Origin: Acorus gramineus
Lineage: Eukaryota > Streptophyta > Magnoliopsida > Acorales > Acoraceae
Direction: 5' to 3'
Assembly (NCBI GenBank): GCA_030737835.1
Contig: JAUJYN010000046.1
Coordinates: forward strand, 358,592 to 422,591
DNA: 64,000 bases
Of this stretch, positions 1,717 through 38,874 are shown piece after piece. The notes below the pieces were generated by a model that saw only the letters and a program-made list of their open reading frames with translations, made no database searches and was not told where the DNA came from. Position numbers and translations under genes: made by a program. Each line of letters opens with the position of its first letter. Positions within the stretch are counted from its first letter, which is position 1.

Positions 1717-1978
1717 TGTTATATTTGTGTCACTTTTAACCTGCTGGTAACCGTTGGAGCATTCTGGCAGTTTTTCGTTTTTTTTCGGTTTTCGATCGGT
1801 ACCGCTAATTTTTGGACTGTTAGCTATCGTCCTGAGCTAGAGGACTCCGATTGGAATCTAACTGCATATTTGGTGTCCTGGTGCCATTTTAGGCCTCTCA
1901 CGAAAATTTCGTTAAATTCCGGTAACGTTTCCGAAATTTCGCAGTTTCGCGGCGTATCCGGGTTTTTAAGTCGCTCGC

Positions 1979-1986
1979 TATATATA
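1979..1986 (+). promoter_or_regulatory. TATA box of element A 5' LTR
   Basis: TATATATA lies about 260 bp into the LTR and is followed by a leader without ATG. The same position carries TATATATA or TATATAAA in other family-1 LTRs (11355, 13844, 51313, 55264 on plus; TATAAATA at 8582-8589 and TATATAAG at 27958-27965 on minus). Transcription would start about 30 bp downstream. No start site is visible directly. Confidence 0.7.
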
Positions 1987-2112
1987 GGTGGGATCTAATT
2001 TCGAAATCACTATTCATCATCCCTACCAATTTCATTTTCTCTCTCCCCTCTCACTATTTCTCACTTTTGAGCCCCCTAGAGCCCTCAAAGCTTAAAACCT
2101 AAAGCATAGGAA

Positions 2113-2137
2113 GTGTAGATCGGGTCCCGATCTACAC
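2113..2137 (+). repeat. Perfect 25-nt leader palindrome
   Basis: Two 12-nt arms, GTGTAGATCGGG and CCCGATCTACAC, are separated by a single T. It recurs at the same place in the leader of other family-1 copies (about 11490, 51447, 55397; one mismatch at 13978; reverse strand near 8432-8454). It is half lost near 27815 and decayed near 45478. It could form a leader RNA hairpin or a self-complementary dimerisation site; that role is inference. Confidence 0.75.
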
Positions 2138-2509
2138 CCCGGTGCTTTCAAATCCAAATTCCGGCGAGTTTTGCCCCTCCATCCGCCCTCTCTTCTCCTC
2201 TATTTTGGCCCATTTCGGAGGTGGGAGTAGATCCGGGCGTTGGAAGCCCTTTGGGAGAGGTTTCGGTGCGCGGAGAACAACCAGATTTCCCTTCCTCCCT
2301 TGGGAAGCCTCTTTTTCCCTCTTTTTCTTGTATAGATGTATGTTAGGAGGTTGGTTTTGGGGTTGGGAGGCGGTCGACGGCGGTGGGTGGCCGTCGAAGG
2401 CTGTGGGAGGTGGTCGGGGGCCTTGGGGTGGCCGGTGGGTGGTGGTTGAGGTGCTCGGGCAGGGTGGCTGGTGGCAGCAGCACAGGCAGCAGCACAGGCA
2501 GCAGGCGCA

Positions 2510-2960
2510 GCAGCTGGCAAGGGCGCGCGCGCGCGTGCGCGCGGACGTGCGCGCGGGTGGAGCTGGGCGCTGGCAGGCGCAGTCGGCCGCGCAGTCGCTC
2601 GCAGGAGCGTGCGCGCGGGTGCGCGGGTTCGCGTGGAGCGGGCGCGCGGGTGCTGGCACGAGCGGGGGTGTGCGCGGGAGTGCGTGCGGGTGCTGGCGCG
2701 AGCGGGGCTGTGCGCGCGAGCGTGCGCGCGCGCGGGCTGGGCACCTGGGCACTGTGCCTGGGTGCTGGGCAGGGCGCCTGGGCATGCGCCTGGGCGCGGT
2801 GCTGGGGACCAGTGCGCGCGGTGCTGGGGACCAGTGCGCGCTCGTGCTGGGGCGTGCGTGCAGTGCGCGCGGGGGCGCGCTGGGCTGGACGCGCGGTGCG
2901 CGCGGGCGCGCGCGAGCGTGCGCGTGCGTGCGGCAGTGCGTCGGGGCGCGCGGGCTGAGG
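2510..2960 (+). repeat. CpG-rich alternating GC island in LTR intron-like region
   Basis: Dense GCGCGCGTGCGC sequence with short internal duplications, such as GGTGCTGGGGACCAGTGCGC twice at about 2800-2840. It lies between the first donor-like site and TTGCAG. All six frames look open here only because GC-rich sequence has few stop codons. Equivalent islands sit in the other long LTRs at about 7225-8050, 11880-12400, 14370-14850, 19480-19760, 26920-27440, 37095-37470, 44440-45110, 51840-52570 and 55790-56570. Confidence 0.8.
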
Positions 2961-3141
2961 CGCGGCGGCGCATCCGAGGGCGGGTGGCCGTGCGGGTGGT
3001 AGCCGTAGTGCTCGGGCTAGCGTGCGTGCGGGTCGTATGCACGTTTGCCCGAGTGTTAGGTGTTTAGTTGTGGGTTTTGTATGTTTGGGTATTTAGAGTA
3101 TTTATGTTTTGTTCTCACCATATTGAATGTCTGTCTTGCAG

Positions 3142-3177
3142 ATCTGGACGGACGGTCGCGCGACGACCCAGATACCG
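3142..3177 (+). other. Candidate 36-nt microexon in LTR leader
   Basis: The block is preceded by CTGTCTTGCAG and followed by GTGAGTGGG, which are good plant acceptor and donor sequences. It is exactly 36 nt here and in nine other copies: 12520-12555, 15014-15049, 19918-19953, 37606-37641, 52663-52698, 56700-56735 and 59986-60021 on plus; 26790-26825 and 44315-44350 on minus. Only the copy at 7072-7109 differs (38 nt). One frame reads LDGRSRDDPDT, and family variants keep the R-S-R-x-D-P pattern. Splicing is inferred from sequence. Confidence 0.55.
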
Positions 3178-4418
3178 GTGAGTGGGACAATCCAACCAGT
3201 AGAGAGGGGTCATACGCACTTGGGCATATACCGACCTCTCCTGGGGCACCGTGGATTATATTAACCTGTAGTAATATGTATTGCATGTGAGCATGATTTT
3301 AAATACAGAATGCATGCTACCCTACGCTTTTATGTTAGGGACTTGCACCCGTAGGATAGGTGTGAGAGCCATGCACCATGTCCCCCTGTTTTCATGCTAG
3401 GAAACCTCGGCCTATGCATGCGCCCTACTAGTTTATTTATTAAATTAAATTCTAGTGTATGTTAAATCGCATGCCTTAGATAATATTATAGGGAGGAGCC
3501 TTGCGAGGTCAACATTGAGACCTGTGTTAGGGTGCTCCGTGTTCCTTGTTTGGTTGTCGGGATGTCCTGTATCGGGACCTCATGCTGCCCTCCCAAGGTT
3601 TCTAGTCCCAGTAATATTATAAGTAATGTTATATAATTAGTATGATTATTAGCATGTTAGTGAATATTATAGGGGAGGGGCCTTGCGAGGACAGCGGTGA
3701 GACCCGGGTTAGGGTACTCCGTGTTCCTTGTTTGGTTGTCGGGGTATCCTATAACGGGAACTCACGCCGCCCTCCCGAGTTCTTTCCCCCAATGATATTA
3801 CAACCTTGTTTTTATTGTACTTATTTCCCCGCATCGTGGTTATGCGCCCTGGAGGAACTCTGAAGAGTTCATGGCATTGGAGTTGTAGAGATGTGTTGCC
3901 GGCGGATCCGAGTGGATCATATGCGTATTGATAGGCTATTCTGTCCTCTTCGTTGGATCCGGTAGAGACTGCCCCAGCGTTAGAAAGGCCGTCCTTCGGA
4001 GGACCCACATCAGTAGGCGCCTCCCGATTTTGTGACGGACTGTGCTGAAGTTGTGGGTGGAGACCAAGCGGCCTACGGAGTGGAGGAGAGACTATCGGTG
4101 GACCAAGGGTGACCAACAGCCTAGTCAGTCCCAAAATCCTGTCACCCGTGGTAGGGTGAGGGTGAGGGTGTAGTGGGTTGGCGATGAGCGACCTACTGGA
4201 TTTGTGAATGGATGATTATCAGTCCCAATAGCCTATGTCACCCATTGATGGGTGAGGGTGAGGGTGTGGTGGTTCGGCGAGGTACGAACCACTGGATTAT
4301 GTTGTTATGTCTTAGAGGCTGGATAAATAATGGAAATATTGGTAAATATTGTCTGTGATGCATGGGTTGTGCTGTTCACTGAGCGTGTGCCTCACCCCTC
4401 GCATATGTTTTTCCCCAG

Positions 4419-4538
4419 TGGTCACTGAGCCTGAGCTAGAGCCGGAGCAGCAGTTGGAGCTTTCCGAGGGATTCCTTCAGTAGCGGAGCAGCGCCACGTT
4501 CCGCGAGTGCCAGAGGTTATCAGCATCCCTTCTTGACT
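4419..4538 (+). other. Candidate exon after intron-2 acceptor, ends at GTATGT
   Basis: The upstream sequence GTTTTTCCCCAG is a strong acceptor, and GTATGT at 4539-4544 is a plausible donor. When joined to the 36-nt block the frame continues through TEPELEPEQQLELSEGFLQ to TAG at 4481-4483. The same acceptor, acidic segment and stop recur in other copies. The block contains no ATG. Another acceptor-like CTCACAG follows at 4606-4612. Without RNA data it could also be plain untranslated leader. Confidence 0.5.
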
Positions 4539-4827
4539 GTATGTATTTGATTTCCGTGCTTGGCACGTGTTTGTATATGTTCAGTTGTATTTGTGTATAT
4601 TGGCTCTCACAGGACATATGATTGAGTATCGAGTCTGTAGAATGTTTATTTACAGATTCAGTCTTTTGCTTCCGCATTTGGTGTATATATCATGTCAGCC
4701 CCTTTGTTGCATGTGTGTCATTCTAGTTGTTGTGTATGATATATATTGTTGACCTCCTGTGTAGTTCTGATATTATATATACACTTGCCGCGTCCCGGGG
4801 ACGGCCGCCCTGGGGCGTGACAAAAGT

Positions 4828-4839
4828 TGGTATCAGAGC
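4828..4839 (+). other. Primer-binding site, initiator tRNA-Met
   Basis: TGGTATCAGAGC begins five bases after the LTR end and is complementary to the 3' end of plant initiator tRNA-Met, the usual primer of Ty3/gypsy chromoviruses and Copia elements. It fixes the 3' boundary of the 5' LTR. Confidence 0.93.
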
Positions 4840-4941
4840 CTGGTCCTGTCAGAGCCAATAGTCTTCCTTTCGTAGAGATGAGTCCTAGGATTTCTATATG
4901 AGTATTCTGATCCTAGTGTCTGGTTTTCTTAGGGTGCTGAT

Positions 4942-5414
4942 ATGCCTCCTCGTAGAGGACGGCGCGGACGAGGTCCCTCTCGGTCTTTGGAGGTTTTCGG
5001 ACCTACCAGAGACGAGGATGCTACCGGAGAGCCCTTGACGCAGGAGCCTCCTGCTTGGGAGCGTGCTTTCGCTCGGTTGGCTGATTTGGTGGAGACACAG
5101 ACGAGGATGTTGGCAGAGCAGGCTAGAGAGATTCGAGAGCTGAGGGTGACTCGCGAGGCAGTTCCACAGGTCCCCTTGGCGGCAGATCCGCCTGTGGTAC
5201 CTGATGTACCCCCAGTTCCTGTGGCAGTTCCGACAGTGAGAGTTGAGGATCCCCTGCAGAGGGAGGAGGAGCTAGAGGCGGCAGCGCGAGTGCGGCAGAG
5301 CGGCCTCAACGCCTTTCTGAAGCTCCATCCTCCCGAGTTTCATGGGCAGTCGGCAGATCCTCTTGCACCAGAGCGTTGGTTGAGGGAGGTGGATACCATT
5401 TTCGCGGCCATGCT
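4942..5414 (+). pseudogene. gag: Element A gag, N-terminal part (split by solo LTR)
   Basis: This is the start of the Gag structural protein. It opens at an ATG 102 bp after the PBS with a basic start (MPPRRGRRGRG), then a Pro/Glu-rich stretch and the beginning of the retrotransposon gag domain (LNAFLKLHPPEFHG, LAPERWLREV). The frame runs into the antisense solo LTR at 5415. The target duplication ATGCT (5410-5414) is repeated at 8854-8858, and the reading frame resumes exactly after it. The insertion is therefore the only break in this half. Confidence 0.85.
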
Positions 5415-8400
5415 TGTCACGCCCCAGGGCGGCCGTCCCCGGGACGTGGCAGGTGTATATATCATATCAGAAACCTACACAGGAGGTCAAATATATATAC
5501 TCTAAACCACAAATAAAATGACAACACAGATCAAACAAGGCTGACATAATATATACACAATATAGCGGAAGCTAAAACTGAGTCTGTAATCCAAAACATA
5601 TCACAGACTCGATACACAATCATATGTCCTGTGAGAGCCAATATACATAGTAACAACTGAATATATACAACACGTGCTCAGCACGGAAATACAATACATA
5701 CAGCCAAGAAAAGGGATGCTGATAGCCTCTGGCACTCGCGGACGTAGCGCTGCTCCGCTACTGAAGGAATCCCTCGGAAAGCTCCAACTGCTGCTCCGGC
5801 TCCAGCTCAGGCTCAGTGGCAACTGGGGAAAAACATATGCGAGGGGTGAGCCACACGCTCAGTGAACAGCAAAACCCATGCATCACAGACTATATTTACA
5901 ACAATTCCATTATTTATCCAATCTCCAAAACATAACAACATAATCCAGTGGTTCGTACTTCGCCGAACCACCACACCCTCACCCTCACCCATCAATGGGT
6001 GACATCGGCTATTGGGACTGATAATCATCTATTCACAAATCCAGTAGGTCGCTCATCGCCAACCCACTACACCCTCACCCTCACCCTAACACGGGTGACA
6101 TAGGATTTTGGGACTGACTAGGCTGTTGGTCACCCTTGGTCCACCGATAGTCTCTCCCTCCACTCCGTAGGCCGCTTGGTCTCCACCCACAACTTCAGCA
6201 CAGTCCGTCACAATCATCGGGAGGCGCCTACTGATGTGGGTCCTCCGAAGGACGGCCTTTCTAACGCTGGGGGTAGCCTCTACCGAATCCAACGCAGGGA
6301 ACAGAACAGCCTATCCATACGCATATGATCCACTCGGATCCGCCGACTACATATCATTACAACTCAAATGTCATGAATTTCTCTGAATTCAACCAGGTGC
6401 ATCATCAAGATGCGGGAACATGTACAAAAATCAGCAAGGCTGGAATATCATTGGGGGAAAGAAACTCGGAAGGGCGGCGTGAGTTCCCGTTATAGGATAC
6501 CCCGACAACCAAACAAGGAACACGGAGTACCCTAACCCGGGTCTCACCGCTGTCCTTGCAAGGCCCCTCCCCTATAATATCCACCAACTATGCTAATAAT
6601 TATACCAATCATACAATCATTACATATAATATTATTGGGACTAGAACCTTGGGAGGGCAGCCCGAGGTCCCGATACAGGACATCCCGACAACCAAACAAG
6701 GAACACGGAGTACCCTAACACGGGTCTCAGCGTTGACCTCGCAAGGCTCCTCCCTATAATATTATCCTAAGGCATGCGATCTAACAGATACCAGCATTTA
6801 ATTTAGTGAATAAACTAGTAGGACGCATGCGTAGGCCGGGGTTTCCTAGCATGAAAACCAGGGGACATGCTGCATGGCTCATACGCATATCCTAAGGGTG
6901 CAAGTCCCTAACATGCAAGGACTAGGGTAGCATGCATTCTACACATAATTCACACAAGCATGGATTACATATTATTGTAGGTAATATTTATCCATGGCGC
7001 CCCAGGAGAGGTCGGTATACGCCCCCAAGTGCGTACAACGCCTCTCTATTGGGTTGGATTGTCCCACTCACCAGAATCGGGGTCGCCTCGCGCGACCGTC
7101 CGTCTAGATCTGCAAGACAGACAATCAATATGGTGAGTTAAAATCCATACATACCACAAGAGACAACCAAAAATACACCAAACCCATAACAAACACCCAA
7201 CACTCGGGCAAACGTGCATACGACCCGCACGCACACTAGCCCAAGCACTCCGACAACCACCTGCACGGCCACCCGACAGCCCGGACGCGCCACCGCGCCT
7301 CAGCCCGCGCACCCCGCGCGCCCCGCGCGCAGCGCCTCGCCTCGCGCGCACCCCACGCGCACCTCCACGGCCTCCACGCGCCCCGCGCGCACCACCCGCG
7401 CGCACCCCCGCCTGCACTGCTCCCCCGCGCAGCGCCCATGACTGCCTGCCGCACGCCCGAGTGCCCCGCGCCCCACGCGCAGCACCCGCGCGCGCCCTGC
7501 CCGCCTGGCGCCCAGCGCCCCGGGCCCTGACCCAGCACCCAGCACCCCGGCGCTCAGCGCCCAGCACCCGGGACCGTCACTCAGCGTCCACGCGCACGCC
7601 CGCGCAGCGCGCACCCAGCGCGCCTGCCAGCCTGCGCGCGCTGCTGCCCGCGCTGCCTGCCTGCGCGCGTCGCCGAGTGGCCCGAGCACTGCTGGCCTAC
7701 CCACCCGAGAACCGTCCGCCTGGTGCCCGAGCACCCCTGCCAGCTGCCCGAGCATGGCCTGCCCAGCCGGCCTGCCCTGCTCGCGCAGCCCGCAGCCTGC
7801 CAGCTCCGCACGCCTCCCCCTGCACCCCCGAGCGCACGCCCGCGCGCGCACCCGCGCGCACGCGCTCGCGCGCCCAGCAAACTGGTGCACCTACTCCCTG
7901 CCTACCCGGCCAGCCCCACCCAGTGCGCCCAGCGTGCCTGCGCACAGCACGCCCAGCACGCGCGCCTGCTAGCCACCATCTCTCCCGACTGCATGCCCGC
8001 GCGCATGCCCGCGCGCACACACGCGCGCGCCTGCCAAATTGCCCTGCCAGCCGCGCCAGCTGCTGCTGCCCTGCCCGAGACAGCCTCCACCACTGCCCGA
8101 GACCACCTCTCACCCATCCCGAGCACCTCTACCACCACCCACCGACCTCCGACCACCTCCACAGCCCTCTGACGGCCACCCACTGCCGTCGACCCCCCAC
8201 CCAAGCCCAAAACCCACTCCCTAACATCCATCTAAACAAGATAAGAGGGGAAATAGGGCTTACCAAGGGGAGGAAGGGAAGTCCGGACGCTCTCCGCGCG
8301 CCGAAACCTTTCCCCAAGGGCTTCCACCGCCCGGATCTCGCTCGGCCTCCGAAACAGCTCCGATCAGAGGAGAAAAGAGGGTGGATGGGAAGGCTAGGAT

Positions 8401-8853
8401 CGCCGGAATCGGGATTTGAGGGCACCGGCGCGTAGATCGGGACCCGATCTACACTTCCCGTGCTTTAGGTTTCAAGCTTTGAGGGGTCTAAGGGCCTCTA
8501 ATGGAAGAAAAAGAGAGAGGGGAGAGAGAAAATGAAGTTGGGGAAGACAATGAACAGTAACTCGGGATTTTAGATCCCACCTATTTATAGTGCGCGACTT
8601 AAAAACCCGGATACGCCCCGGAACTGCGAAATTTTTGTAAACGATGCCAGAATTCGATGAAATTTTCGTGAGAGGTCTAAAATGGCACCAGGACACCAAA
8701 TATGCAGTTAGATTTCCAATCGGAGTCCTCTAGCTCAGGACGATAGCTAACAGTCCAAAAATAAGCGGTTCCGATCGAAAACCCTAAAAATTTTTAAAAC
8801 TGCTAGGACGCTCTAACGGTTACCTGCAGGCTAAAAGTGACACAAGTACAACA
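5415..8853 (-). mobile_element. Antisense family-1 solo LTR inside element A gag
   Basis: In plus orientation it begins TGTCACGCCCC and ends ACACAAGTACAACA, which is the reverse complement of a family-1 LTR (3439 bp). It is flanked by ATGCT at 5410-5414 and 8854-8858. It carries no internal region, so it is a solo LTR left by LTR-LTR recombination. On the minus strand it has a TATA-like TATAAATA (8582-8589) and a GC island (about 7225-8050). Its exon-like block (7072-7109) is 38 nt instead of 36 and therefore out of frame. This is a more decayed copy than its neighbours. Confidence 0.92.
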
Positions 8854-8858
8854 ATGCT

Positions 8859-11090: not shown

Positions 11091-13579
11091 TGTTATATTT
11101 GTGTCACTTTTAACCTGCTGGTAACCGTTGGAGCATTCTGGCAGTTTTTCATTTTTTTTTCGGTTTTTGATCGGTACCGCTAATTTTTGGACTGTTAGCT
11201 ATCGTCCTAAGCTAGAGGACTCCGATTGGAAATCTAACTGCATATTTGGTGTCCTGGTGCCATTTTAGGCCTCTCACAAAAATTTCGTTGAATTCCGGAA
11301 ACGTTTCCGAAATTTCACAGTTTCGGGGCGTATCTGGGTTTTTAAGTCGCTCGCTATATATAGGTGGGATCTAATTTCGAAATCACTATTCATCATCCCT
11401 ACCAACTTGATTTTCTCTCTCCCCTCTCTCTTTTTCTCCCTTTTGAGCCCCCTAGAGCCCTCAAAGCTTAAAACCCAAAGCATAGGAAGTGTAGATCGGG
11501 TCCCGATCTACACTCCGGTGTTTTCAAATCCCCTTTCCGGCGAGTTTCACCCCTCCGTCCGCCCTCTCTTCTCCTCTGTTTTGGCTCATTTCGGAGGTGG
11601 GAGTAGATCCGGGCGTTGGAAGCCCTTTGGGAGAGGTTTCGGTGCGCGGATAGCAACCGGACTTCCCTTCCTCCCCTTGGTAAGCCTCTTTTCCCCTCTT
11701 TTCTTGTGTAGATGTATGTTAGGAGGGTGGATTTGAGGTTGGGAGGCGGTCGTCGGCGGTGGGTGGCCGTCGGAGGGCTGTGGGGGTGGTCGGAGACCTT
11801 GGGGTGGCCGGTGGGTGGTGGTTGAGGCGCTCGGGCAGGGTGGCTGGTGGCAGCAGCACAGGCAGCAGGCACAGCAGCTGGCAGGGGCGCGCGCGCGCGT
11901 GCGCGCGGGTGGATCTGGGCGCTGGCAGGCGCAGTCGGGCGCGCAGTCGCGCGCGGGAGCGTGCGGGCGGGTGCGCGGGTTCGCGCGGAGCGGGCGCGCA
12001 GGTGAACGCGGGTGCTGGCGCGAGCGGGGGTGTGCGCGGGAGTGCGCGCGGGTGCAGGCGCGAGCGGGGGTGTGCGCTCGAGCGTGCGCGCGCGCGGGCT
12101 GGGCACCTGGGCACTGTGCCTGGGTGCTGGGCTGGGCACCTGGGCACTGCGCCTGGGCATGCGCCTGGGCGCGGTGCTGGGGACCAGTGCGCGCGGTGCT
12201 GGGGACCAGTGCGCGCGCGTGCTGGGGGTGCGTGCAGTGCGCGCGGGGGCGCGCTGGGCTGGACGCGCGGTGCGCGCGGGCGCGCGCGAGCGTGCGCGTG
12301 CGTGCGGCAGTGCGTCGGGGCGGGCGGGCGGGCTGAGGCGCGGCGGCGCATCCGAGGGCGGGTGGCCGTGCGGGTGGTAGCCGTAGTGCTCGGGCTAGCG
12401 TGCGTGCGGGTCGTATGCACGTTTGCCCGAGTGTTAGGTGTTTAGTTGTGGGTTTTGTATGTTTGGGTATTTAGAGTATTTATGTTTTGTTCTCACCATA
12501 TTGAATGTCTGTCTTGCAGATCTGGACGGACGGTCGCGCGACGACCCAGATACCGGTGAGTGGGACAATCCAACCAGTAGAGAGGGGTCATACGCACTTG
12601 GGCATATACCGACCTCTCCTGGGGCACCGTGGATTATATTAACCTGTAGTAATATGTATTGCATGTGAGCATGATTTTAAATACAGAATGCATGCTACCC
12701 TACGCTTTTATGTTAGGGACTTGCACCCGTAGGATAGGTGTGAGAGCCATGCACCATGTCCCCCTGTTTTCATGCTAGGAAACCTCGGCCTATGCATGCG
12801 CCCTACTAGTTTATTTATTAAATTAAATGCTAGTGTATGTTAAATCGCATGCCTTAGATAATATTATAGGGAGGAGCCTTGCGAGGTCAACATTGAGACC
12901 CGTGTTAGGGTGCTCCGTGTTCCTTGTTTTTTTGTCGGGATGTCCTGTATCGGGACCTCATGCTGCCCTCCCAAGGTTTCTAGTCCCAGTAATATTATAA
13001 GTAATGTTATATAATTAGTATGATTATTAGCATGTTAGTGAATATTATAGGGGAGGGGCCTTGCGAGGACAGCGGTGAGACCCGGGTTAGGGTACTCCGT
13101 GTTCCTTGTTTGGTTGTCGGGGTATCCTATAACGGGAACTCACGCTGCCCTCCCGAGTTCTTTCCCCCAATGATATTACAACCTTGTTTTTATTGTACTT
13201 ATTTCCCCGCATCGTGGTTATGCGCCCTGGAGGAACTCTGAAGAGTTCATGGCATTTGAGTTGTAGAGATGTGTTGTCGGCGAATCCGATTGGATCATAT
13301 GCGTATGGATAGGCTGTTCTGTCCCCTTCGTTGGATCCGGTAGAGACTACCCCAGCGTTAGAAAGGCCGTCCTTCGGAGGACCCACATCAGTAGGCGCCT
13401 CCCGATATTTGTGACGGACTGTGCTGAAGTTGTGGGTGGAGACCAAGCGGCCTACGGAGTGGAGGAGAGACTATCGGTGGACCAAGGGTGACCAACAGCC
13501 TAGTCAGTCCCAAAATCCTATGTCACCCGTGGTAGGGTGAGGGTGAGGGTGTAGTGGGTTGGCGATGAGCGACCTACTG
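11091..13579 (+). mobile_element. Element A 3' LTR, left part
   Basis: Nearly identical to 1717-4200. It has TATA at 11355-11362, the leader palindrome near 11490, an intact first donor (CCTTGGTAAG, GT at 11680-11681), a GC island 11880-12400, and TTGCAG before the 36-nt block 12520-12555. It contains both foldback modules and is cut at GACCTACTG (13579) by a nested solo LTR. The exon-like block belonging to this LTR lies beyond the insert at 16928, with an in-frame TAG at 16990-16992. Confidence 0.9.
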
Positions 13580-16500
13580 TGTTATATATGTGTCACTTTT
13601 AACCTGTTGGTAACCGTTAGAGCGCCCTGGCAGTTTTAAAAATTTTTAGGGTTTTCGATCGGAACCGCTAATTTTTGGACTGTTAGCTATCGTCCTGAGC
13701 TAGAGGACTCCGATTGGAAATCTAACTGCATATTTGGTGTCCTGGTGTCATTTCTGGCCTCCCACGAAAATTTCATCGAATTCTAGCATCGTTTGCAAAA
13801 ATTTCACAGTTCCGGGGCGTATCCGGGTTTTTAAGTCGCACACTATATAAATGGAATCTAAAAATTTGAAATCACTATTCATCATCCCGACCTTGGACTC
13901 TCTCTCTCCTCTCCTCCGTTTTTCTTCCGTTTGAGCCCCCTCCACCCCTCAAAATCAAAAACCTAAAGCACGGGAAGTGTAGATCGGGTCCCGATCTACG
14001 CTCCGGTGTCTTCAAATCCGAGTTCCGACGATCCTAGCCTCCCCGACCTCCTCTCTCTCTCCTCTGTTTCGAGCCAAATTGAGGGCCGTGATAGATCGGG
14101 GCGTGGGAGAGCCTTTGAGGAAGGTTTCGGCGCACGAAGAGCTACCGAACACCTTTCCCTCCCCTCGGTAAGCCTTCTTTCCCTCTTTTTCTTGCATAGA
14201 TGTATGCTAGGGAGGTGGGTTTTGTGTTTGGGGGTGGTCGGCGGCAGTGGGGGTCGTCGGAGGGTGGTCGGAGGTGGTTGGAGGTGGTCGGTGGTCAAGG
14301 GAGGGGTGGTGGTGGCGCTCGGGCAGTGGCAGGTCGTCCGGGCCAATCTGCAGCAGCAGCAGCAGCCCAGGCGGCGCGCAGGTCGGGTGCGCGCGGGCAG
14401 GCGCGCGTGCGCGCGGGCGTGCGCGGGTCTGGTGCGGGCTGCTGGTCGTGCTGGGCGCGCGAGCTCGGGCTGGGGGCCTCAGGCAGCAGGCAGCGAGTGC
14501 AGGGGGGGGCCGGCTGGGCGTGCGCTCGGGCGTGCGAGGTGTGCGCGAGGCGCAGCGGGGTGTGCGAGGTGCGTGCGAGGTGCGGCAAGGTGTGCGAGGT
14601 GCGTGCGAGGTGCGCGCGAGGTGCGGCAAGGTGTGCGAGGTGCGTGCGAGGTGCGCGCGAGGTGCGGCAAGGTGTGCGAGGTGCGGCAAGGTGTGCGAGG
14701 TGCGCGCGAGGTGCGGCAAGGTGGCGGAGGTGCGTGCAGGTGCGCGCGAGGTGCGGCAAGGTGGCGGAGGTGCGCGCGGGGTGCTCGCGGGCCGGCGCGA
14801 AGCGTGCGGGGTGCGCGGGCTGAAGCGCGGCGGTGCACCCGGGCGGTCGGGTGGCCGTGCGGGTGGTTGCCGGAATGCTCGGGCTAGCGTGCGTGCGGGT
14901 CGTGTGCACGTTTGCCCGAGTGTTAGGTGTTTGTTGTGGGTTTTGGGGTATTTATTTGCATATTTAATAATAATTGTGGATTTATACTTACCAAATAATA
15001 CCCTGTCTTGCAGATCTCGACGGACGGTCGCGCGTCGACCCGAGTTCCGGTGAGTGGGACAATCCAACCCAGTAGAGAGGTGTTATACGCACTTGGGCGT
15101 ATACCGACCTCTCCTGGGGCGACATGGATAAATATTAACCTGTAATAATATGTATTGCATGTGAGCATGATGAAAAATGTAGAATGCTTGCTACCCTAGG
15201 CTTTTATGTTAGGGACTTGCACCCATAGGATAGGTGTAATAGCCATGCAGCATGTCCCCTGGTTTTCATGCTAGGAAACCCGGCCTATGCATGCATCCTA
15301 CTAGTTTATTCGTTAAATTAAATGCTGGTATCTGTTAGATCGCATGCCTTAGGATAATATTATAGGGAGGAGCCTTGCGAGGTCAACGCTGAGACCCGTG
15401 TTAGGGTACTCCGTGTTCCTTGTTTGGTTGTCGGGATGTCCTGTATCGGGACCTCAGGCTGCCCTCCCAAGGTCCTAGTCCCAATAATATTATATGTAAT
15501 GATTGTATGTTGGGTATAATTATTAGCATGAGTAGTGAATATTATAGGGGAGGGGCCTTGCGAGGACAGCGGTGAGACCCGCGTTAGGGTGCTCCGTGTT
15601 CCTTGTTTGGTTGTCGGGGTACCCTATATCGGGAACTCACGCCGCCCTCCCGAGTTTCTTTCCCCCAGTGATATTCCAACACTGCTTTTGATTGTACTAT
15701 TTCCCCGCATCTTGGATATGCGCCCTGGAGGAACTCTGAAGAGTTCATGACATTTGAGTTGTAATGATATGTAGTCGGCGGATCCGAGTGGATCATATGC
15801 GTATGGATAGGCTGTTCTGTTCCCTGCGTTGGATCCGGTAGAGGCTACCCCCAACGTTAGACAGGGCCTTCCTGACAGAGGGCTCCCATTAGTAGGCACC
15901 TCCTGATTTGGTTTCGGACTGTGCTGAATGTGGGAGTAGACCAGGCGGCCTACGGAGTGGAGGGAGAGCTATCGGTGGGCCAAGGGTGACCAACAGCCTA
16001 GTCAGTCCCAAAATCCTATGTCACCCATTGATGGGTGAGGGTGAGGGTGTAGTGGGTTGGCGATGAGCGACCTACTGGATTTGTGAATAGATGATTATCA
16101 GTCCCAATAGCCTATGTCACCCATGGATGGGTGAGGGTGAGGGTGTGGTGGTTCGGCGAAGTACGAACCACTGGATTATGTTGTTATGTATTGATGGCTG
16201 GATAAAACAATGGAATATTGTGGTAAATATTGTCTGTGTTGCGTGGGTTGTGCTGTTCACTGAGCGTGTGGCTCACCCCTCGCACATGTTTTTCCCCAGT
16301 TGCCACTGAGCCTGAGCTGGAGCCGGAGCAGCAGTTGGAGCTTTCCGAGGGATTTCTTCAGTAGCGGAGCAGCGCCACGTTCCGCGAGTGCCAGAGGTTA
16401 TCAGCATCCCTTCTTGACTGTATGTATTTGATTTCCGTGCTTGGCACGTGTTTGTATATGTTCAGTTGTATTTGTGTATATTGGCTCTCACAGGACAGAT

Positions 16501-16710
16501 GATTGAGTATCGAGTCTGTAGAATGTTTATTCACAGATTCAGTCTTTTGCTTCCGCATTTGGTGTATATATCACGTCAGCCCTTTTTGTTGCATGTGTGT
16601 CATTCTAGTTGTCTGTGTATGATATATATTATTATTGACCTCCTGTGTTGGCTTCTGATATGATATACACACTTGCCGCGTCCCTGGGTTGGCCGCCCTG
16701 GGGCGTGACA
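13580..16710 (+). mobile_element. Family-1 solo LTR nested in element A 3' LTR (no target duplication)
   Basis: 3131 bp from TGTTATATATGTG to GGGGCGTGACA, with TATA at 13844-13851. Its GC island contains a GTGCGAGGTGCG minisatellite. The 36-nt block lies at 15014-15049, the acceptor ends at 16299 and the in-frame TAG is at 16362-16364. The flanks read CTACTG and GTTGTG. Compared with the intact 5' LTR (CTACTGGATTTGTG) there is no 5-bp duplication and about two bases are lost. It may result from recombination between two insertions or from gene conversion rather than a simple insertion. Confidence 0.85.
14550..14775 (+). repeat. GC-rich minisatellite (GTGCGAGGTGCG-type)
   Basis: Irregular tandem copies built from GTGCGAGGTGCG, GCGAGGTGCGGCAAGG and GTGCGTGCGAGG, about 10 to 30 bp each. 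It lies inside the GC island of the solo LTR at 13580-16710. Other family-1 copies do not show this expansion, so it grew after they separated. The long open frames across it are low-complexity artefacts. Confidence 0.75.
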
Positions 16711-17328
16711 GTTGTGAATGGATGATTATCAGTCCCAATAGCCTATGTCACCCATTGATGGGTGAGGGTGAGGGTGTGGTGGTTCGGCGAGGTACGAACC
16801 ACTGGATTATGTTGTTATGTCTTAGAGGCTGGATAATTAATGGAAATATTGGTAAATATTGTCTGTGATGCATGGGTTTTGCTGTTCACTGAGCGTGTGG
16901 CTCACCCCTCGCATATGTTTTTCCCAGTGGTCACTGAGCCTGAGCTAGAGCCGGAGCAGCAGTTGGAGCTTTCCGAGGGATTCCTTCAGTAGCGGAGCAG
17001 CGCCACGTTCCGCGAGTGCCAGAGGTTATCAGCATCCCTTCTTGACTGTATGTATTTGATTTCCGTGCTTGGCACGTGTTTGTATATGTTCAGTTGTATT
17101 TGTGTATATTGGCTCTCACAGGACATATGATTGAGTATCGAGTCTGTAGAATGTTTATTTACAGATTCAGTCTTTTGCTTCCGCATTTGGTGTATATATC
17201 ATGTCAGCCCCTTTGTTGCATGTGTGTCATTCTAGTTGTTGTGTATGATATTATTGACCTCCTGTGTAGATTCTGATATTATATATACACTTGCCGCGTC
17301 CCGGGGACGACCGCTCTGGGGCGTGACA
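16711..17328 (+). mobile_element. Element A 3' LTR, right part
   Basis: It continues the interrupted LTR from GTTGTGAATGG to GGGGCGTGACA. It contains the hairpin GTGGTTCG/CGAACCAC (about 16778-16802), the GCTCACCCCTCGCAT block, acceptor TTTTTCCCAG (ends 16927), the exon-like block from 16928 and GTATGT at about 17048. TTATA at 17329-17333 matches the left duplication and closes element A. Confidence 0.9.
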
Positions 17329-18585: not shown

Positions 18586-21349
18586 TGTTATATATGTGTC
18601 ACTTTTTAGCCTATTGGTCACATTTGGGTCATTTCTGGCCATTTTTCAATTTTTCTTTTTTCGATCGGAGCCGCTAAAATTTTAGACTTTTAGCTATCTG
18701 CGTGAGTTCAAGTACTCCGATTGAAAATCTAACTGCATATTATGAGTCCTGGTACCATTTAGTACTACTCATAAAAATTTCATCGAATTCCAGTAACGTT
18801 TTAAAAATTATGCAGTTCCGAATCGTATCCGGGTTTCGGTCGTTACTGGTTTGTTTGGTGGAATAGTGTTGGGATATTTTGGTGGTTATGGTCACCTTGG
18901 GTAACCTCACCCCCCTCTTGCTTAATGGGTAAGAAAACTTTGGTTATTTTTTATGTGTGTGGGTGAGTTTAACTTAGGTTCACCACCCGCTTTTTCCCTT
19001 CTCATCACCCCCCCCCCCCATTTGAGAAAAAATTGATCTCTCTCTCTCTTTCACCCCCTCTCATGCCACCCTCTCCCTCTTGATTGTGTGTGTTTGTGTG
19101 TGTGTTTTGAAGAAAAAGAAGGAGAAGAAACAAGCACAAAGAGGAGTAGTGAAGGAGGAGGGACACACAAAGGTGTGTATGTGTGTTGTTGTAGTGGTTG
19201 ATTGATTCCCTTCTCTTAGGCTCCCTCTCATGCTCCCTTTTTGCCCCTGATTTTCAGCCAAGTAAGGCTGAGGAGGTGGTGGTGTTGGTGGTGGCGGTTG
19301 CGGTGGTTTTGGTGCGCCAAGAGCACCCGAATACCTCCCCTTTTCTTTCCCCTCCTTTGGTAAGCTCTCCTCCTCCCTTATCTATGTTTTAATGGTTGTT
19401 AGGGCTGTTAGGGTGATCATGCATGCCATGCATGTGGGTTAGGGTGTGTGTGAGGGCTGTGGAGGGGATGGGAGAGGTCTGGGCGCGCGCGCAGACGCGC
19501 GCGCAGAGGGGTGCTGGCGCGCGTAGTCGGGCATGCTGGCGGGCGCACGCGGGTACGCGCAGGCGCACGAACGTGCGCGCGAGGAGCTGGCGCGGGCGTG
19601 CAGTGCGCGCGAGTGTGCGCAAGCGCATGCGAGCGCGCGGCAGCGCGTCTGGACGCGCGGTTGGGCGCGCGGCAGTGCGCTAGGGGGTGCGGGGGCACGT
19701 GCGCGCGTGCTTATGCGTGCGTACGTGTGCGGGGGCCATGCGTGTGGCTGCCCGAGGGTTCGGGTAGGTGTCGGGGCACTCGGACTTGCGTGCGTACGTG
19801 CGTACTCGCATGCGTGCGAGCCCGTATGCGTGCTTGTCCGAGTCTTTGGCATTTCTAGTAAATTCCATGTATATTTATGTAGTTATACTCACCATATTGA
19901 ATGCCCTTGTCTTGCAGATCTTGGCGAACGGTCACGCAACGACCCGGGTTGCGGTGAGTGGGTCGATCCAACCCAGTTGGGAGGCGTTCGATGCACGTAG
20001 ACGTGCATTGCCCTCCCCTGGGGCATCATAACTGCATATTAACCATATTTGCATGTATATGTTATTATTGGGCTTGCTAGGTTGCATCCATGTCATGTTA
20101 GACCTAACATGTTAGGGTTATACATCCTAGTATCATGTGTAGGGTCCAATGCTTGTTCATGCATCATGTCCCATGTTAGGATAACATTTGATTCCTACAT
20201 GCACCCCGACCTTGCCTAAGTATACCCTTAGCTATCTATGAAAAGCATAAGTGTAAGCATGCCTTATAAAATATTATGACCTTGTTATTATATTATTTAA
20301 ATGCTTCCATGATGAATTCCTTGTATATTTATTATCCATGTTATATGCTTAAGTTGAGCCTCAAATCTTGCCTAATGAGTTTAGGCAAGTGTATGACCAC
20401 TTATGGGGTCATACTTGGCAATTGTCACTATGAATAATATGTTTTCCCTGCATCTGAGTTATGCGCCCTGGAGGGAATTCTTGAGAATTCTTTACCGTAT
20501 CGGTGTTTAGTAACCGGTGTCGACGGATTCAAGAGGATCGTATCCGCAAGTGTAGATTGTTTTCTCCCCTTCGTTGGATCCGATGTAGGAACTCCCCGGC
20601 GTTGGGAAAACCTATCCTGACAGAGGTCTCCCATCCGTAGGTACTACTGATGCAATCGGGAACGTACTGATCGTGGGAGTATACCAGGTAGAGGCTACCC
20701 GGGGAAAGGGCTACCGGTGGACCAAGGGTGTAGAGCAGTCTAATCTCTCCCAAAAGTCCTATGTCACCTCTAAAGGGTGAGGGTGAGGGTGTGGTGGGTC
20801 GGCGTCGCTACGACCCACCAATTTGTGCAGTTACTCCCATCTTAGGGACTTTAATGATTTTTTTAAGGTTAATATGAGTTGTGTTGCATGGATTGTACCA
20901 TTCACTGAGCGTGTGGCTCACCCCTCGCATACCTTTTTCCTCCAGTTGTCGCTGAGTTGGATCTGAAGGAGGAGCTCCCCGAGGCATCGCACCAGTAGCG
21001 GAGCAGCGTTCGCGTTTTGGGTCTTGCGAGTGAGAGGCCATCAGCATCCCCCTTTTTTCCTTGTATGTATTATTACTCGTGCTTGGGCACAGTACTTGTA
21101 TGTTGATGTCTTTGTTTTATATTGGCTCTCACATGACAGTTGATTATGTATTCTGGTCTGTAATATGTCTTTGAATTACAGACTCAGTCGTTTAAGCTTC
21201 CGCTATATGTATATATATTATGTCAGCTACATTGTTAATTGTGTTATTACCTTCGATGTTGTTTAGAGTCTTTTATTGATCTCGTGCATGGACTGCTGAT
21301 ATTATATATATTTGCCACGTATTGGGGATGGCCGCCCTGGGGCGTGACA
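18586..21349 (+). mobile_element. Family-2 solo LTR in element C LTR
   Basis: 2764 bp from TGTTATATATGTGTCAC to GGGGCGTGACA, flanked by GTGAG at 18581-18585 and 21350-21354. The sequence is clearly diverged from family 1, but the architecture is the same: donor TTTGGTAAG (GT at 19360), GC island (19480-19760), TTGCAG then 36-nt block 19918-19953 then GTGAGTGGG, hairpin 19979-20016, GTGGGTCG/CGACCCAC hairpin (about 20798-20818), acceptor ending 20945, in-frame TAG at 20996-20998, and GTATGT at 21063. No clear TATA box is seen. Confidence 0.9.
19979..20016 (+). other. Conserved hairpin after the GTGAGT site
   Basis: Arms GGGAGGC and GCCCTCCC, with inner arms ATGCACGT and ACGTGCAT, lie 24 nt after the donor-like site and are followed by CTGGGGCA. 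Other families pair at the same position with different bases: GAGAGG/CCTCTC at 56761-56799, GGGAG/CTCCC at 52725-52762, and GATGCGC/GCGCATC at 47024-47059. Changes on both arms that keep the pairing suggest a selected RNA structure. Confidence 0.65.
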
Positions 21350-25135: not shown

Positions 25136-28100
25136 TGTCACGCCCCAGGGCGGCCGTCCCCGGGACGCGGCAGGTGTATATATCATATCAGAAGCCTACA
25201 CATGAGGTCAAATATATATACTCTAAACCACAGATAAAAATGACAACATAAATCAAACAAGGCTGACATAATATATACACAATATAGCGGAAGCTAAAAA
25301 CTGAGTCTGTAATCAAAACATATTACAGACTCGATACACAATCATACGTCCTGTGAGAGCCAATATACATAGAAACAACTGAATATATACAGACGCGTGC
25401 CAAGCACGGAAATAAAATACATACAGCCAAGAAAAGGGATGCTGATAGCCTCTGGCACTCGCGGACGTAGCGCTGCTCCGCTACTGAAGGAATCCCTCGG
25501 AAAGCTCCAACTGCTGCTCCGGCTCCAGCTCAGGCTCAGTGACAACTGGGGAAAAACATATGCGAGGGGTGAGCCACACGCTCAGTGAACGGCACAACCC
25601 ATGCATCACAGACAATATTTACCACAATTCCATTATTTATCCAATCTCCAAGACATAACAACATAATCTAGTGGTTCGTACTTCGCCGAACCACCGCACC
25701 CTCACCCTCACCCATCCATGGGTGACATAGGCTATTGGGACTGACAATCATCCATAAACAAATCTAGCAGGTCGCTCATCGCCAACCCACTACACCCTCA
25801 CCCTCACCCTACCACGGGTGACATAGGATTTTGGGACTGACTAGGCTGTTGGTCACCCTTAGTCCACCGGTAGTCTCTCCTCCACTCCGTAGGCCGCTTG
25901 GTCTCCACCCACAACTTCAGCACAGTCCGAAACCAAATCAGGAGGTGCCTACTGATGTGGGTCCTCCGAAGGACGGCCTTTCTAACGCTGGGGCAGCCTC
26001 TACCGGATCCAACGAAGGGAACAGAACAGCCTATCCATACGCATATGATCCACTCGGATCCGCCGACAACACATCTCTCCAACTCAAATGTCATGAACTC
26101 TTCAGAGTTCCTCCAGGGCGCATATCCAAGATGCGGGGAAATAGTACAATCAAAAGCAGTGTTGGAATATCACTGGGGGAAAGAAACTCGGGAGGGCGGC
26201 GTGAGTTCCCGATACAGGGTACCCCGACAACCAAACAAGGAACACGGAGTACCCTAACACGGGTCTCACCGCTGTCCTCGCAAGGCCCCTCCCCTATAAT
26301 ATTCACTACTCATGCTAATAATCATACCAAACATATAACATTACTTATAATATTATTGGGACTAGAAACCTTGGGAGGGCAGCATGAGGTCCCGATACAG
26401 GACATCCCGACAACCAAACAAGGAACACGGAGTACCCTAACCCGGGTCTCACCGCTGTCCTCGCAAGGCCCCTCCCTATAATATTACCTAAGGCATGCGA
26501 TTTAACATACACTAGCATTTAATTTAATAAATAAACTAGTAGGACGCATACTCAGGTCGAGGTTTCCTAACATGAAACAGGAGACATGGTGCATGGCTCG
26601 TATACATATCCTAAGGGTGCAAGTCCCTAACATGCAAAGTCTAGGGTAGCATGCATTCTACAATTTAATCATACAAGCATGGATTACATATTACTGCAGG
26701 TTAATATTCATCCACGGTGCCCCAGGAGAGGTCGGTATACGCCCAAGTGCGTATAACGCCTCTCTACTGAGTTGGATTGTCCCACTCACCAGTATCTGGG
26801 TCATCGCGCGACCGTCCGTCTAGATCTGCAAGACAGACATTCAATATGGTGAGTTAAAATCCATGAACACCCAAAAATACATAACATACCCAAATAAACA
26901 CCCAACACCCTCCTGCAATCACCCGCACGGCCGGCCACTACCCGCACGGCCACCCGACCGCCCGGACGCGCCGCCGCGCCTCAGCCCGCGCACCCCGCAC
27001 GCCTCGCGCCGCCCGCGAGCACCCCGCGCCCCCCCGCGCGCAGCGCCTCGCCTCGCGCGCACCCCGCGCGCACCTCCACGGCCTCGCCGCGCCCCGCGCG
27101 CACCACCACGGCCTCGTCGCGCCCTCCGCGCGCACCCTGCACTCGGCCACCACCTCGCGCACGCACCTCCGCTGCCTCAGCCACCACCTCGCGCACACAC
27201 CTCCGCTGCCTCAGCCACCACCTCGCGCACACACCACCCCTGCTCGCACGCCTAGCACCCGCGTGACCAGCTCCTCGCGCACCAGCCCGCCCAGCACCTC
27301 GCGCACCAGCCCGCCCAGCACCAGCCGCCCACCACCTCTGCACGACCAGCACAGCACGCGTCCCGCGCGCGCCTGCTTGCACGCCGCGCGCACGCCCGCC
27401 CGCTCACGCACTCGCGCATGCCAGCGCGTGCCCAGCCTGCGCGCTGCTGCTGCTCTGCCTGCTGCCCGAGAACATCTCCCACCAGCCCGAGACCACCCCC
27501 TGCTGCCCGAGACCACCCAAACCACCACCCACCGACCTCCGACCACCTCCACCGCCCTCCGACGGCCACCCACAGCCGCCGACCACCCCTCATACACAGA
27601 TCCACACTCCTAGCATACATCTATGCAAGAAAAGTGAAGAAAAAGGCCTTACCAAGGGGAGGAAGCGAAGTCCGGACGCTCTCCGCGCGCCGAAACCTTT
27701 CCCAAAGGCTCTCTTACGCCCCGATCTACCACGGCCCTCGAAATGGCCCGAATCAGAGGACAAAGAGAGGGGGACGGAGTGGCTAGAGTCGTCGGAATCG
27801 GGTTTTGAAGACACCGGACCCGATCTACACTTCTCGTGCTTTAGGTTTTTAGGTTTGAGGGGTCTAAGGGCCTCTAATGGAAGAAAAAGAGAGAGGGAGG
27901 AGAGAGAGGGATTTGGTAGGGATGATGAACAGTAACTCGGAAAAATTAGATCCCACTCTTATATAGTGTGCGACTTAAAAACCCGGATACGCCCCGGAAC
28001 TGCGAAATTTTGGGAACGTTACCGGAATTCGATGAAATTTTCGTGAGAGGCATAAAATGGCACCAGGACACCAAATATGCAGTTAGATTTTCAATCGGAG

Positions 28101-28228
28101 TCCTCTAACTCAGGACGATAGCTAACAGTCCAAAAATAAGCGGTTCCGATCGAAAAACCGTAAAAACCGAAAAACTGCCAGAATGCTCTAACGGTTACCA
28201 GCAGGCTAAAAGTGACACATATATAACA
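25136..28228 (-). mobile_element. Antisense family-1 solo LTR in element D 5' LTR
   Basis: 3093 bp from TGTCACGCCCC to TATATAACA in plus orientation, flanked by GAAGT at 25131-25135 and 28229-28233. On the minus strand it has TATATAAG (27965-27958), a GC island (about 26920-27440), the 36-nt block 26790-26825, an acceptor at 25546-25547, and an in-frame TAG at 25483-25481. The leader palindrome is half deleted near 27815. Since D itself is young, this insertion is younger still. Confidence 0.92.
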
Positions 28229-36179: not shown

Positions 36180-38874
36180 TGTTATATATGTGTCACTTTT
36201 AGCCTTCTGGTCACCATTGGAGCATTCTGGCAGTTTTTCAACTTTTTCTTTTTTCGATCGGAACCGCTAAAATTTTAGACTTTTAGCCATCATCATGAGC
36301 TTGAGAACTCCGATTGAAAATCTAATTGCATATTATGTGTCCTGGTGCCATTTCATGCCACTCACGAAAATTTCATCGAATTCCGGTAATGTTTCATAAT
36401 TTCCCAGTTCTGAATCGTATCTGGGTTTTGACCAAGCGAAAAGTCATTGGGAGACTTGACCAAGTCAAAGAGGACTTTGACCAAGTCAAGTTTGACCCTT
36501 GACGTGGTCAAAATATTTTGTTTTCTAGTGTGGTTGGGTTGACTAAAGTCAAAGTGCACCTAACCTAGCTTAACCTAATTAATTCTAAGTGTAAGTGAGT
36601 GTGAGTGGTATGTGTGTGTGTGTGGTGTGTGTGTGTGGCCTTTAAGTGAAGTCCACGCCCACAACTAGTGCCCCTCCTATTCATCTTCTTCTCCATCTCT
36701 CTCAAGCTCTCTCATCTCCTCTCTTTATTTCCACTTTTTGATCTAGTTAGAGTGGAAGAAAAGAAAAGCCCTAGAAGGAGAAAAGCTTGGTAAGGACCCG
36801 ATCTATCTTTCCATGGTCTTGGATTTCCATTCCCCTTTGTTTTTCCTCCTCTCATGGCACCTCTTCTCCTCTGTTTTCAGCCCCTCTTAGCTGAGAAGAG
36901 GTCTTGGTAGTGGTGGCTTTGGTGGTGGCAAATCGGTGCGCGAAGAGCACCCGATTTTCCCTCCCTTCCTTTCCTCCCTTGGGTAAGCTTTCCTCCCCCC
37001 TATTTCTTGTTTAGATGCATGTTTAGGATGTGTTTTTGGATGTGCAAGGTGTGCATGAGTGTTTGGGGTATGGGAGGGCTGAGGGAGGTGGTGGGGTTGG
37101 CTCGGGCGCGCGTGCGCGCGAGTCTGCGCGCGCAGGCAGTGCAGGCGCGTGCAGTCGGGCGTGCGGGCGTGCGCGCGGAGCGTTGCGCAGGGGCGCAGTG
37201 CGTGCAGTGCGCGCAGGGGTGTGCGCGGGGTGCTGCGCAGGGGCACAGTACGCGCGGGTAGGCGCTGGGCTGGACGCGCGGTGCGCGTGGGCGTGCGCGA
37301 GCGTGCGCACGAGCGTGCGGCGTGTCTGGGCGAGCGGGAAGAGGCGCGGCAGCGCGCCTGGGCGCGCGGGCTGGGGCGCGGCAGTGCGCCCGGGGCGCGG
37401 GTGGGCGTGCGTGCATGCGCACCCGTGTGTGCGCGTGCGGGTGGCCGTGCGCATGGCTTCCCGGGGGTGCAGGAGTGGGTCGGGGCACTCGGACTCGCGT
37501 GCGTACGGGCCCGTATGCATGCTTGTCCGAGTGTTGGGTATTTCTAGCGTATTTCTTGTGTATTTGTGTATTTTACTCACCATTTTGGTTTCCCATGTCT
37601 TGCAGATCTTGACGGGCGGTCACGCGACGACCCAGGTATTGGTGAGTGGGACAATCCAACCCAGTAGGGAGGCGTTCGATGCACGTAGGCGTGCATTGCC
37701 CTCCCCTGGGGCACCATAATTGCGTATTAATTTGTAATAAGTGTAATCTGTGCTATGCATGATCATTATGTTGTATTCATGTCACCTTAGGCTTGTATGC
37801 TAGGGATATGCACCCTTATGTTGTGGATAGAGGCCTACGCATCCTGATACCATGTTTTCATGCTAGGAAAGCCTCGACCTACGCATGTTTCCCATTTAGT
37901 TTAATTTATTTAAATCAAATGCGAGCTTATGGTTATTAGCATGCCTTAGAGAATATTATAACCTCGTGGTTATAATATATGCTTCCCCGCATCTTAGTTA
38001 TGCGCCCTGGTGGAATTCTGAAGAATTCATGACATTTGTAGAGTTGCAATCGGTGTCGGCGGATCCAAGAGGATCGTATCCGTGTGGGTAGGCTGTTTCT
38101 CTTCCCTTCGTTGGATCCGTGTAGGGACTCCTCAGCGTTAGACAGGCTGTCCTGACAGAGGGCTCCCATCTGTAGGTACCTCCGATGCGTCGGACTGTGC
38201 TGATCGTGGGAGTAGACCAGGCAAGCTACGGAGTGGAGGAGAGGCTATCGGTGGACCAAGGGTGATTAACAACCTAGTCAGTCCCAAAAGACCATGTTAC
38301 CCTTGAGAGTGAGGGTGAGGGTGTGGTGGGTCGGCGATGTAGCGACCCACTGGATTGTGTAGTGACTGCCACTTAGAGGCTATAAATAATTTGAGGTTAA
38401 TATGAATTGTGATGCATGGGTTGTGCTATTCACTGAGCGTGTGGCTCACCCCTCGCATATATTTTTCTCCAGTTATATCTGAGTCGGATCTGAAGGAGGA
38501 GCTCCCCGAGGCACATCAGCAGTAGCGGAGCAGCGTCACGTTCTGCGTGTGAGAGGCCATCAGCATCCCCCCCCTTTTGATTGTATGTATTGTATTCCGT
38601 GCTTAGGCACACGTTTGTATTACATTTGGATGTCATTGTATATATTGGCTCTCACAGGACAGTTGATTATGTATCGGGTCTGTAATATGTCTTTTGAATT
38701 ACAGACTCGGTCTTTTAGCTTCCGCTATTTGTGTATATATTATGTCAGCCTCATTGTTGTCTGTGTTGTCATTGTTGATGATTGTTTAGAGTATATTATT
38801 GACCTCCTGTTTAGACTGCTGATATCATATATACCATTGTCGCGACTCGGGGACGGCCGCCCTTGGGCGTGACA
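36180..38874 (+). mobile_element. Family-2 solo LTR
   Basis: 2695 bp from TGTTATATATG to GGGCGTGACA, flanked by CGTGT at 36175-36179 and 38875-38879. Internal order: first donor GGGTAAG (GT 36983-36984), GC island 37095-37470, TTGCAG then 36-nt block 37606-37641 then GTGAGTGGG, hairpin from about 37667, GAATTC-TGAA-GAATTC hairpin near 38012-38027, GTGGGTCG..CGACCCAC hairpin near 38326-38350, acceptor TTTTTCTCCAG ending 38472, TAG 38523-38525 in the joined frame, and GTATGT near 38584. It is diverged from family 1 but keeps the same plan. Confidence 0.9.

Follow-up and report, generated by a model that had tools for sequence, protein, structure and literature searches.

Plant LTR elements are generally free of introns, with few exceptions, according to the consulted passages of a 2025 review, which names EVD/Evade and Ogre as notable ones (PMC12786077); an excerpt of a second paper likewise presents Ogre of legumes as an intron-bearing plant LTR element (PMC6317226). 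As these passages describe them, the introns of EVD/Evade in Arabidopsis and of Ogre lie in the gag-pol coding sequence or between ORFs and are used for alternative RNAs (PMC12786077, PMC6317226). The barley Ty1/copia element BARE1 has spliced and unspliced RNA pools, and its authors argue, in the part of their paper drawn on here, that only the unspliced RNA is replicated; the BARE intron of 104 nt has its junction just past the end of gag, within the coding region, and the same part names the Bagy2 env RNA and CRR as splicing cases (PMC3735527). Within the compass of these excerpts, splicing of plant LTR elements is already known in or between coding regions (BARE1, EVD, Ogre). For the deltaretrovirus HTLV-1, an excerpt mentions an 'LTR splice donor' (PMC11599126).

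Here we describe Ty3/gypsy LTRs of Acorus gramineus that, like the plant elements EVD/Evade and Ogre, would use introns to make alternative RNAs, and that differ from what is described of those elements in that the introns lie in the LTR. With BARE1, as it appears in the excerpt, they would share the spliced and unspliced RNA pools; they differ from it in having their introns in the LTR and leader, and in that Acorus RNA spliced at intron 1 has been replicated. As in the HTLV-1 description, the LTR itself contains a splice donor. The HTLV-1 acceptors are located in the genome body, whereas the Acorus Ty3/gypsy LTR holds whole introns and exons. Among the open-licence PMC papers listed, which included HTLV-1 and lentiviral-vector ones, titles and abstract starts mentioned neither whole introns within LTRs nor intron-less LTR offspring.

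The window, that is, the whole 64,000-nt stretch of A. gramineus DNA that was analysed, proved to be a nest of LTRs of a single kind (TGTTAT...GTGACA; Table 1). Matching 5-bp flanks were found at nine window insertions (A/C and K5/K3 each counted once), while comparison of the flanks of LTR D gave no clean target-site duplication (TSD). Solo LTRs flanked by perfect 5-bp duplications account for seven of the 12 end-to-end LTRs (B, E, F, G, H, I and J), a sign of frequent LTR-LTR recombination in this region. A primer-binding site stands behind A and K5, and a polypurine tract ahead of C and K3; the primer-binding site TGGTATCAGAGCC presumably matches tRNA-iMet. The first gag piece (4942-5412) by itself had zero Pfam family matches, and the later piece at window 8854-9570 matched PF03732 (3.6e-19) and PF19259 (3.4e-08), which identifies a Ty3-type gag. 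All nine relatives of the gag piece are A. gramineus proteins. The gag start and primer-binding site would place the element in the Tekay/Del chromovirus clade. Directly after K3, a truncated family-3 LTR end, N (window 62331-63593), carries an acceptor of its own at 63214.

Table 1. Features of the window, with the positions of donors (D) and acceptors (A) in each LTR
Feature	Position	Strand	D1	A1	D2	A2	D3	Remarks
LTR A	1717..4822	+						5' LTR of Ty3/gypsy element, 3106 nt; boundaries, TSD TTATA in common with LTR C, primer-binding site behind
TATA-box-like CTATATATAGG	1978..1988	+						in LTR A
Exon 1 of LTR A	2010..2303	+						from alignment and ATG count; ATG-poor in family; left edge putative
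Intron 1 of LTR A	2304..3141	+						donor GT is GA here; precisely lost in 30 other genomic copies
Exon 2 of LTR A	3142..3177	+						36 nt; TTGCAG before, GTGAGTGG after
Intron 2 of LTR A	3178..4418	+						ATG-rich; covarying hairpin at start, repeated hairpin units, polypyrimidine-CAG at end
Stem-loop, LTR A copy	3196..3245	+						immediately behind donor 2; 20 pairs, with pairing in 96.7% of cells
Exon 3 of LTR A	4419..4538	+						no ATG in 60/60 family-1-like copies
Putative intron 3	4539..4932	+						GTATGT donor to TTTTCTTAG acceptor; spans LTR end and primer-binding site
Primer-binding site region TGGTATCAGAGCC	4828..4840	+						
gag, first part	4942..5412	+						ATG nine bases after acceptor 3; frame then interrupted by solo LTR B
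LTR B	5415..8853	-	8263	7111	7071	5824	5701	solo, TSD AGCAT
LTR C	11091..17328	+	11680			16926	17048	3' LTR of LTR A's element; exon 2 12520-12555; pieces 11091-13579 and 16712-17328, divided by LTR D
LTR D	13580..16710	+	14168	15012	15050	16298	16420	nested in LTR C
LTR E	18586..21349	+	19360	19916	19954	20944	21063	divergent solo, TSD GTGAG
LTR F	25136..28228	-	27652	26827	26789	25547	25424	solo, TSD ACTTC
LTR G	36180..38874	+	36983	37604	37642	38471	38583	divergent solo, TSD CGTGT
LTR H	42774..46062	-	45309	44352	44314	43163	43054	solo, TSD CCTTA
LTR K5	42388..49326	+	46437	46951 (AT)	46988 (GC)	48941	49053	family 3, 5' LTR, divided by H
LTR I	51048..54127	+	51640	52661	52699	53734	53833	solo, TSD CGCCG
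LTR J	55000..58479	+	55588	56698	56736	58081	58196	solo, TSD AGAAG
LTR K3	58650..62330	+	59467	59984	60022	61946	62058	family 3, 3' LTR, TSD TATTC with K5

The first-pass annotation had claimed that LTR families differing over most of their length keep the same ordered donor and acceptor signals. This was borne out, family 3 included: in the 12 end-to-end LTRs the order was kept and 57 of 60 sites were intact, with GT at D1 in 11/12, AG at A1 in 11/12, GT at D2 in 11/12, AG at A2 in 12/12 and GT at D3 in 12/12. The three mutated sites are D1 of LTR A, which reads GA, and A1 and D2 of K5, which read AT and GC. The coordinates given at the time were also largely right, since 3142 is the start of exon 2 and 4538 the end of exon 3 in LTR A, and 11679, 12520-12555 and 16928 are exact exon edges of LTR C; nine of the ten acceptor ends quoted were exact, and 782 should read 781.

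The exon-2 motif occurs at 11,169 places in the 398.6-Mb A. gramineus assembly, in which the window lies on contig C84. The 12 window LTRs were joined by 53 genome copies into a set of 65; these came from the first 60 of 100 listed motif places, all on contig C1, with seven of the 60 stretches dropped because an LTR end was missing or misplaced. As the 53 copies were chosen by exact exon-2 match, an unbiased count around A1 and D2 comes from the 12 window LTRs alone (11/12 each). Among the 65 LTRs, the sites were retained in 63 (D1), 64 (A1), 62 (D2), 65 (A2) and 65 (D3). Comparison of the GT/AG positions with their neighbours, a check proposed along with the original claim, gave a divided answer: A2 (1st of 131 AG), D3 (3rd of 197 GT) and D1 (8th of 197) stood out above the local background, whereas A1 (42nd of 131) and D2 (50th of 197) were no better kept than their neighbours, because the whole of exon 2 with its flanks is conserved as one block. 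Splice-site scoring, another check proposed, gave ranks for all five sites. With a donor consensus, D2 had a median rank of 1 among ~261 GT per LTR, D1 ranked 9th and D3 25th; with a simple acceptor score, A2 ranked 3rd and A1 5th among ~180 AG. These ranks cover the copies in which the site is intact. By consensus D3 is a weak donor, which counts against the splicing reading. At A2, CAG was present in 65/65 LTRs after a tract of 86.6% pyrimidine whose letters change between copies (majority letter 72.9%), a pattern that is the signature of a splice acceptor.

ATG triplets were counted in 60 family-1-like copies (K5, K3, E, G and H left out), and the expectation was taken from two dinucleotide-shuffle runs. 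Exon 3 had 0 ATG (38.8 and 45.8 expected), exon 1 had 18 (95.6 and 84.2) and exon 2 had 4 (13.0 and 11.6). Intron 1 had 454 (528.0 and 534.4), and the rest of the LTR 418 (569.8 and 565.2). Intron 2, with 2098 ATG (1963.6 and 1936.0 expected), agreed with the earlier observation that the intron-like stretches are rich in ATG. The accompanying statement that the exon-like blocks have none came close: ATG is absent from exon 1 in 47/65 copies (8/12 in the window) and from exon 3 in 63/65 (10/12). CAT, which served as strand control, was undepleted, with 99 in exon 3 (75.4 expected) and 201 in exon 1 (135.4 expected). Two observations count against a simple reading: U3, which lies outside the leader, is also low in ATG (140, with 274.4 and 282.8 expected), and exon 3 of family 3 has ATG. 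The depletion is thus strongest in the exons and strand-specific there, and it is not confined to exons. Coding exons, as another reading of the blocks, were considered by eye and set aside; the exons lack ATG.

If the signals mark introns, reverse transcription of spliced RNA should yield intron-less LTRs. Indeed, the junction of exon 1 with exon 2 was found at the predicted base at 26 genome places when up to 3 mismatches were allowed; 11 of these were exact, and the reversed control pattern had 0 matches. All 26 run from exon 1 through exon 2 into intron 2. Four further joins came from subfamilies in which exon 1 is one G longer before GTAAG, bringing the total to 30 copies; in these subfamilies the join shifts along with the donor. 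The longer form was seen in 6 of 56 typable unspliced copies, and 9 of the 65 were untypable. When exact flanks were allowed a free spacing of 3-33 nt (31 spacings), 11/11 matches, not all of them independent, fell at the predicted junction. All 30 intron-1-less copies continue from exon 2 into intron 2, and 28 of them have donor 2 intact as GTGAGTGG. The other two, L080 (contig C8) and L087 (contig C59), have a donor 2 damaged by a change of its first base or by the loss of one base.

Two intron-1-less elements are complete enough to be read as insertions. The C2 element (TSD ACCAT) has two LTRs without intron 1, a primer-binding site after the 5' LTR and a polypurine tract before the 3' LTR, the tract being read in this element only; its LTRs are 98.0% identical over 799 aligned bases. 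The C78 element (TSD TTATG) likewise has both LTRs without intron 1 and a primer-binding site after the 5' LTR. Intron 1 is very G-rich (48% G in the 65 copies), with poorly alignable GCGCG runs (window 2400-3060 and equivalents). The introns usual in plants are U-rich according to the excerpt on BARE1 (PMC3735527), so this composition is odd for a plant intron and was counted against the splicing reading, yet intron 1 is spliced.

For introns 2 and 3, the corresponding searches found no footprint. The assembly gave 0 matches to the join of exon 2 with exon 3 (two patterns), 0 to that of exon 3 with the gag start and 0 to that of exon 1 with exon 3. The intron 2 patterns fit 22 and 27 of the 65 copies and the intron 1 patterns 39 and 29; since the free-spacing patterns fit 27/65 and 29/65 respectively and yielded 0 vs 11 matches, low sensitivity alone does not account for the difference. 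The halves of the intron 3 join pattern are present in 38/65 exons 3 and in 9/12 leaders. Acceptor 3, TTTTCTTAG, nine bases before the gag ATG, was found in 10 of 12 aligned leaders, namely the 10 intact family-1 leaders. The exceptions are K5, which reads TTATCTTAG and has its acceptor 3 ahead of the gag of its element, and L053, which is rearranged, with the start of the primer-binding site followed by unrelated sequence. A pattern for the acceptor 3 region with a fixed G matched 2,190 genome places, with AG in 98 among 100 matches listed. The LTR part of intron 3 is T-rich (40% T).

We infer from these signals that introns 2 and 3 are real. In favour of this reading are A2, the rank of D2, acceptor 3 before gag, the T-richness of intron 3 within the LTR, and the ATG purge. 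The favoured explanation for the missing footprint is that both would be spliced only in RNA unable to replicate; that they are not introns is less favoured. In the latter case, only intron 1 would be real, and the intron 2 and 3 signals would be parts of a structured leader whose AUGs ribosomes bypass by shunting or internal entry, as they do in plant pararetroviruses. This reading accommodates the lack of intron-2-less and intron-3-less copies in our searches and the conserved hairpins in intron 2. We nevertheless regard it as unlikely: against it stand the CAG of A2, kept in every copy behind a tract of varying pyrimidines, the position of D2 as the best donor of the LTR, and the two separate shunts that it needs for the AUGs on either side of exon 3.

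Taken together, we consider it highly probable that these sequences form a three-intron leader, almost wholly inside the LTR, that is spliced to a gag mRNA. According to this model, the 5' leader of these abundant Ty3/gypsy LTRs would be a three-intron pre-mRNA. Transcription would begin near exon 1, probably about 30 nt past CTATATATAGG in LTR A. Introns 1 (~0.9 kb) and 2 (~1.2 kb) would be removed. So would intron 3, which starts where exon 3 stops, takes in the LTR end and primer-binding site and reaches the acceptor nine bases before the gag AUG; this AUG would become the first in the spliced mRNA. Since intron 3 contains the primer-binding site, fully spliced RNA would be translatable and not replicable. 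The template for reverse transcription would be unspliced or intron-1-spliced RNA, in which intron 2 and the primer-binding site are still present, and translation and replication would then fall to different RNAs. The first-pass annotation had suggested that splicing of the leader clears upstream AUGs ahead of gag; splicing of intron 1 and the AUG purge support it, introns 2 and 3 are still putative, and the gag-proximal acceptor, which had gone unnamed, is present.

A stem-loop directly behind donor 2 is common to 86 copies (73 distinct), picked by a pattern that requires a donor-like word, with five matches to another repeat dropped. Its positions pair in 96.7% of cells, and in 37-59% when the partners are slid. 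There are 51 doubly changed cells vs 22.1 in shuffles (0/500 reach this number), 45 of which stem from two pairs and were inherited by subfamilies. Counted by pair, support is weaker, with double changes in six pairs vs 4.2 in shuffles (38/500 reach). Further into intron 2, a strict hairpin pattern matched 44/65 copies with one to three units each (73 units in 39 forms). Tandem units of ~80 nt (window 4125-4202, 4219-4298 and equivalents) contain hairpins of the AGTGGGTTG...CAACCCACT type, whose arms, judged by eye, seem to change together between copies. A module of ~165 nt is duplicated in intron 2 (window 3457-3622 and 3640-3803), and shorter fragments of it recur in the interior of the A/C element and of the K element (10321-10436 and 49768-49885). 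An Rfam search of window 1700-5450 returned nothing at the gathering score, the one match having 18 bits vs a gathering score of 48.

In HIV-type leaders, a hairpin behind the major splice donor is the packaging signal. By analogy, the covarying Acorus hairpin lies directly 3' of the strongest donor and would be present only in RNA that is unspliced there. Because of where this hairpin lies, and because intron 2 is retained in 30/30 copies that lack intron 1, we propose intron 2 as the place of a putative signal for replication or packaging. Replicated RNA apparently tolerates the loss of intron 1 and not that of intron 2, which all 30 copies keep and for which the assembly search found no intron-less copy. 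We tentatively consider, as a possibility with somewhat less than even chances, that RNAs are sorted as in retroviruses: a signal in intron 2, from the hairpin on, would admit RNA to replication, and removal of intron 3 would take the primer-binding site, so that splicing alone would set message against genome.

The origin of the intron-1-less copies was further examined in a tree built from flanks outside intron 1, with 63 copies that contain the intron and 30 that lack it, K5 and K3 being excluded. No fewer than 15 changes in the state of intron 1 are needed (bootstrap 15-17), and well-supported branches carry at least 10 of these. When one flank is used by itself, the exon 1 side requires 17 changes and the exon 2 side 19. 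A previous tree, with 26 intron-less copies, gave 13 changes, 7 of them forced. These numbers bear on the idea that one deletion gave rise to all intron-1-less LTRs and was spread by transposition and recombination, with no splicing. The intron-less label is indeed clustered on the tree (15 changes vs a shuffled mean of 25.7), as this idea would have it, and gene conversion could lower the number of independent losses. However, a single deletion is very improbable in view of the changes on supported branches and on either flank taken alone, and of joins that fall at GT/AG in 30/30 copies, also where exon 1 is one G longer. A microhomology deletion at the shared CTTG, which was rejected, would leave CAG, and CAG was not seen at the joins. 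Repeated splicing of intron 1 in different lineages is the simplest reading of the tree.

It is hardly credible that the blocks are conserved as signals for transcription or polyadenylation and have GT/AG by chance: this would suit the conservation of exon 2 and its flanks as one block, and GTATGTATT, which we take to be a possible polyadenylation-type element, but it conflicts with site retention, with the precise removal between D1 and A1 with 11/11 matches at the predicted spacing, and with a strand-specific ATG purge that is strongest in the exons. The precise intron-less copies, the two elements with TSDs and the repeated changes on the tree therefore argue that intron 1 was spliced from RNA that was then reverse transcribed. 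Judged from genomic copies, these data show its removal at D1 and A1 from RNA later copied into new insertions.

Acorus represents an early-branching monocot lineage. Its LTR would itself be an intron-exon chain, conserved across divergent subfamilies, in a family whose motif occurs at ~11,000 places in the 399 Mb of the genome. This carries a warning that transposable element models assuming no introns can miss LTR-internal exons. The natural intron-less offspring record both splicing and retrotransposition, with no reporter needed, and the separation of translation from replication in such elements becomes directly testable.
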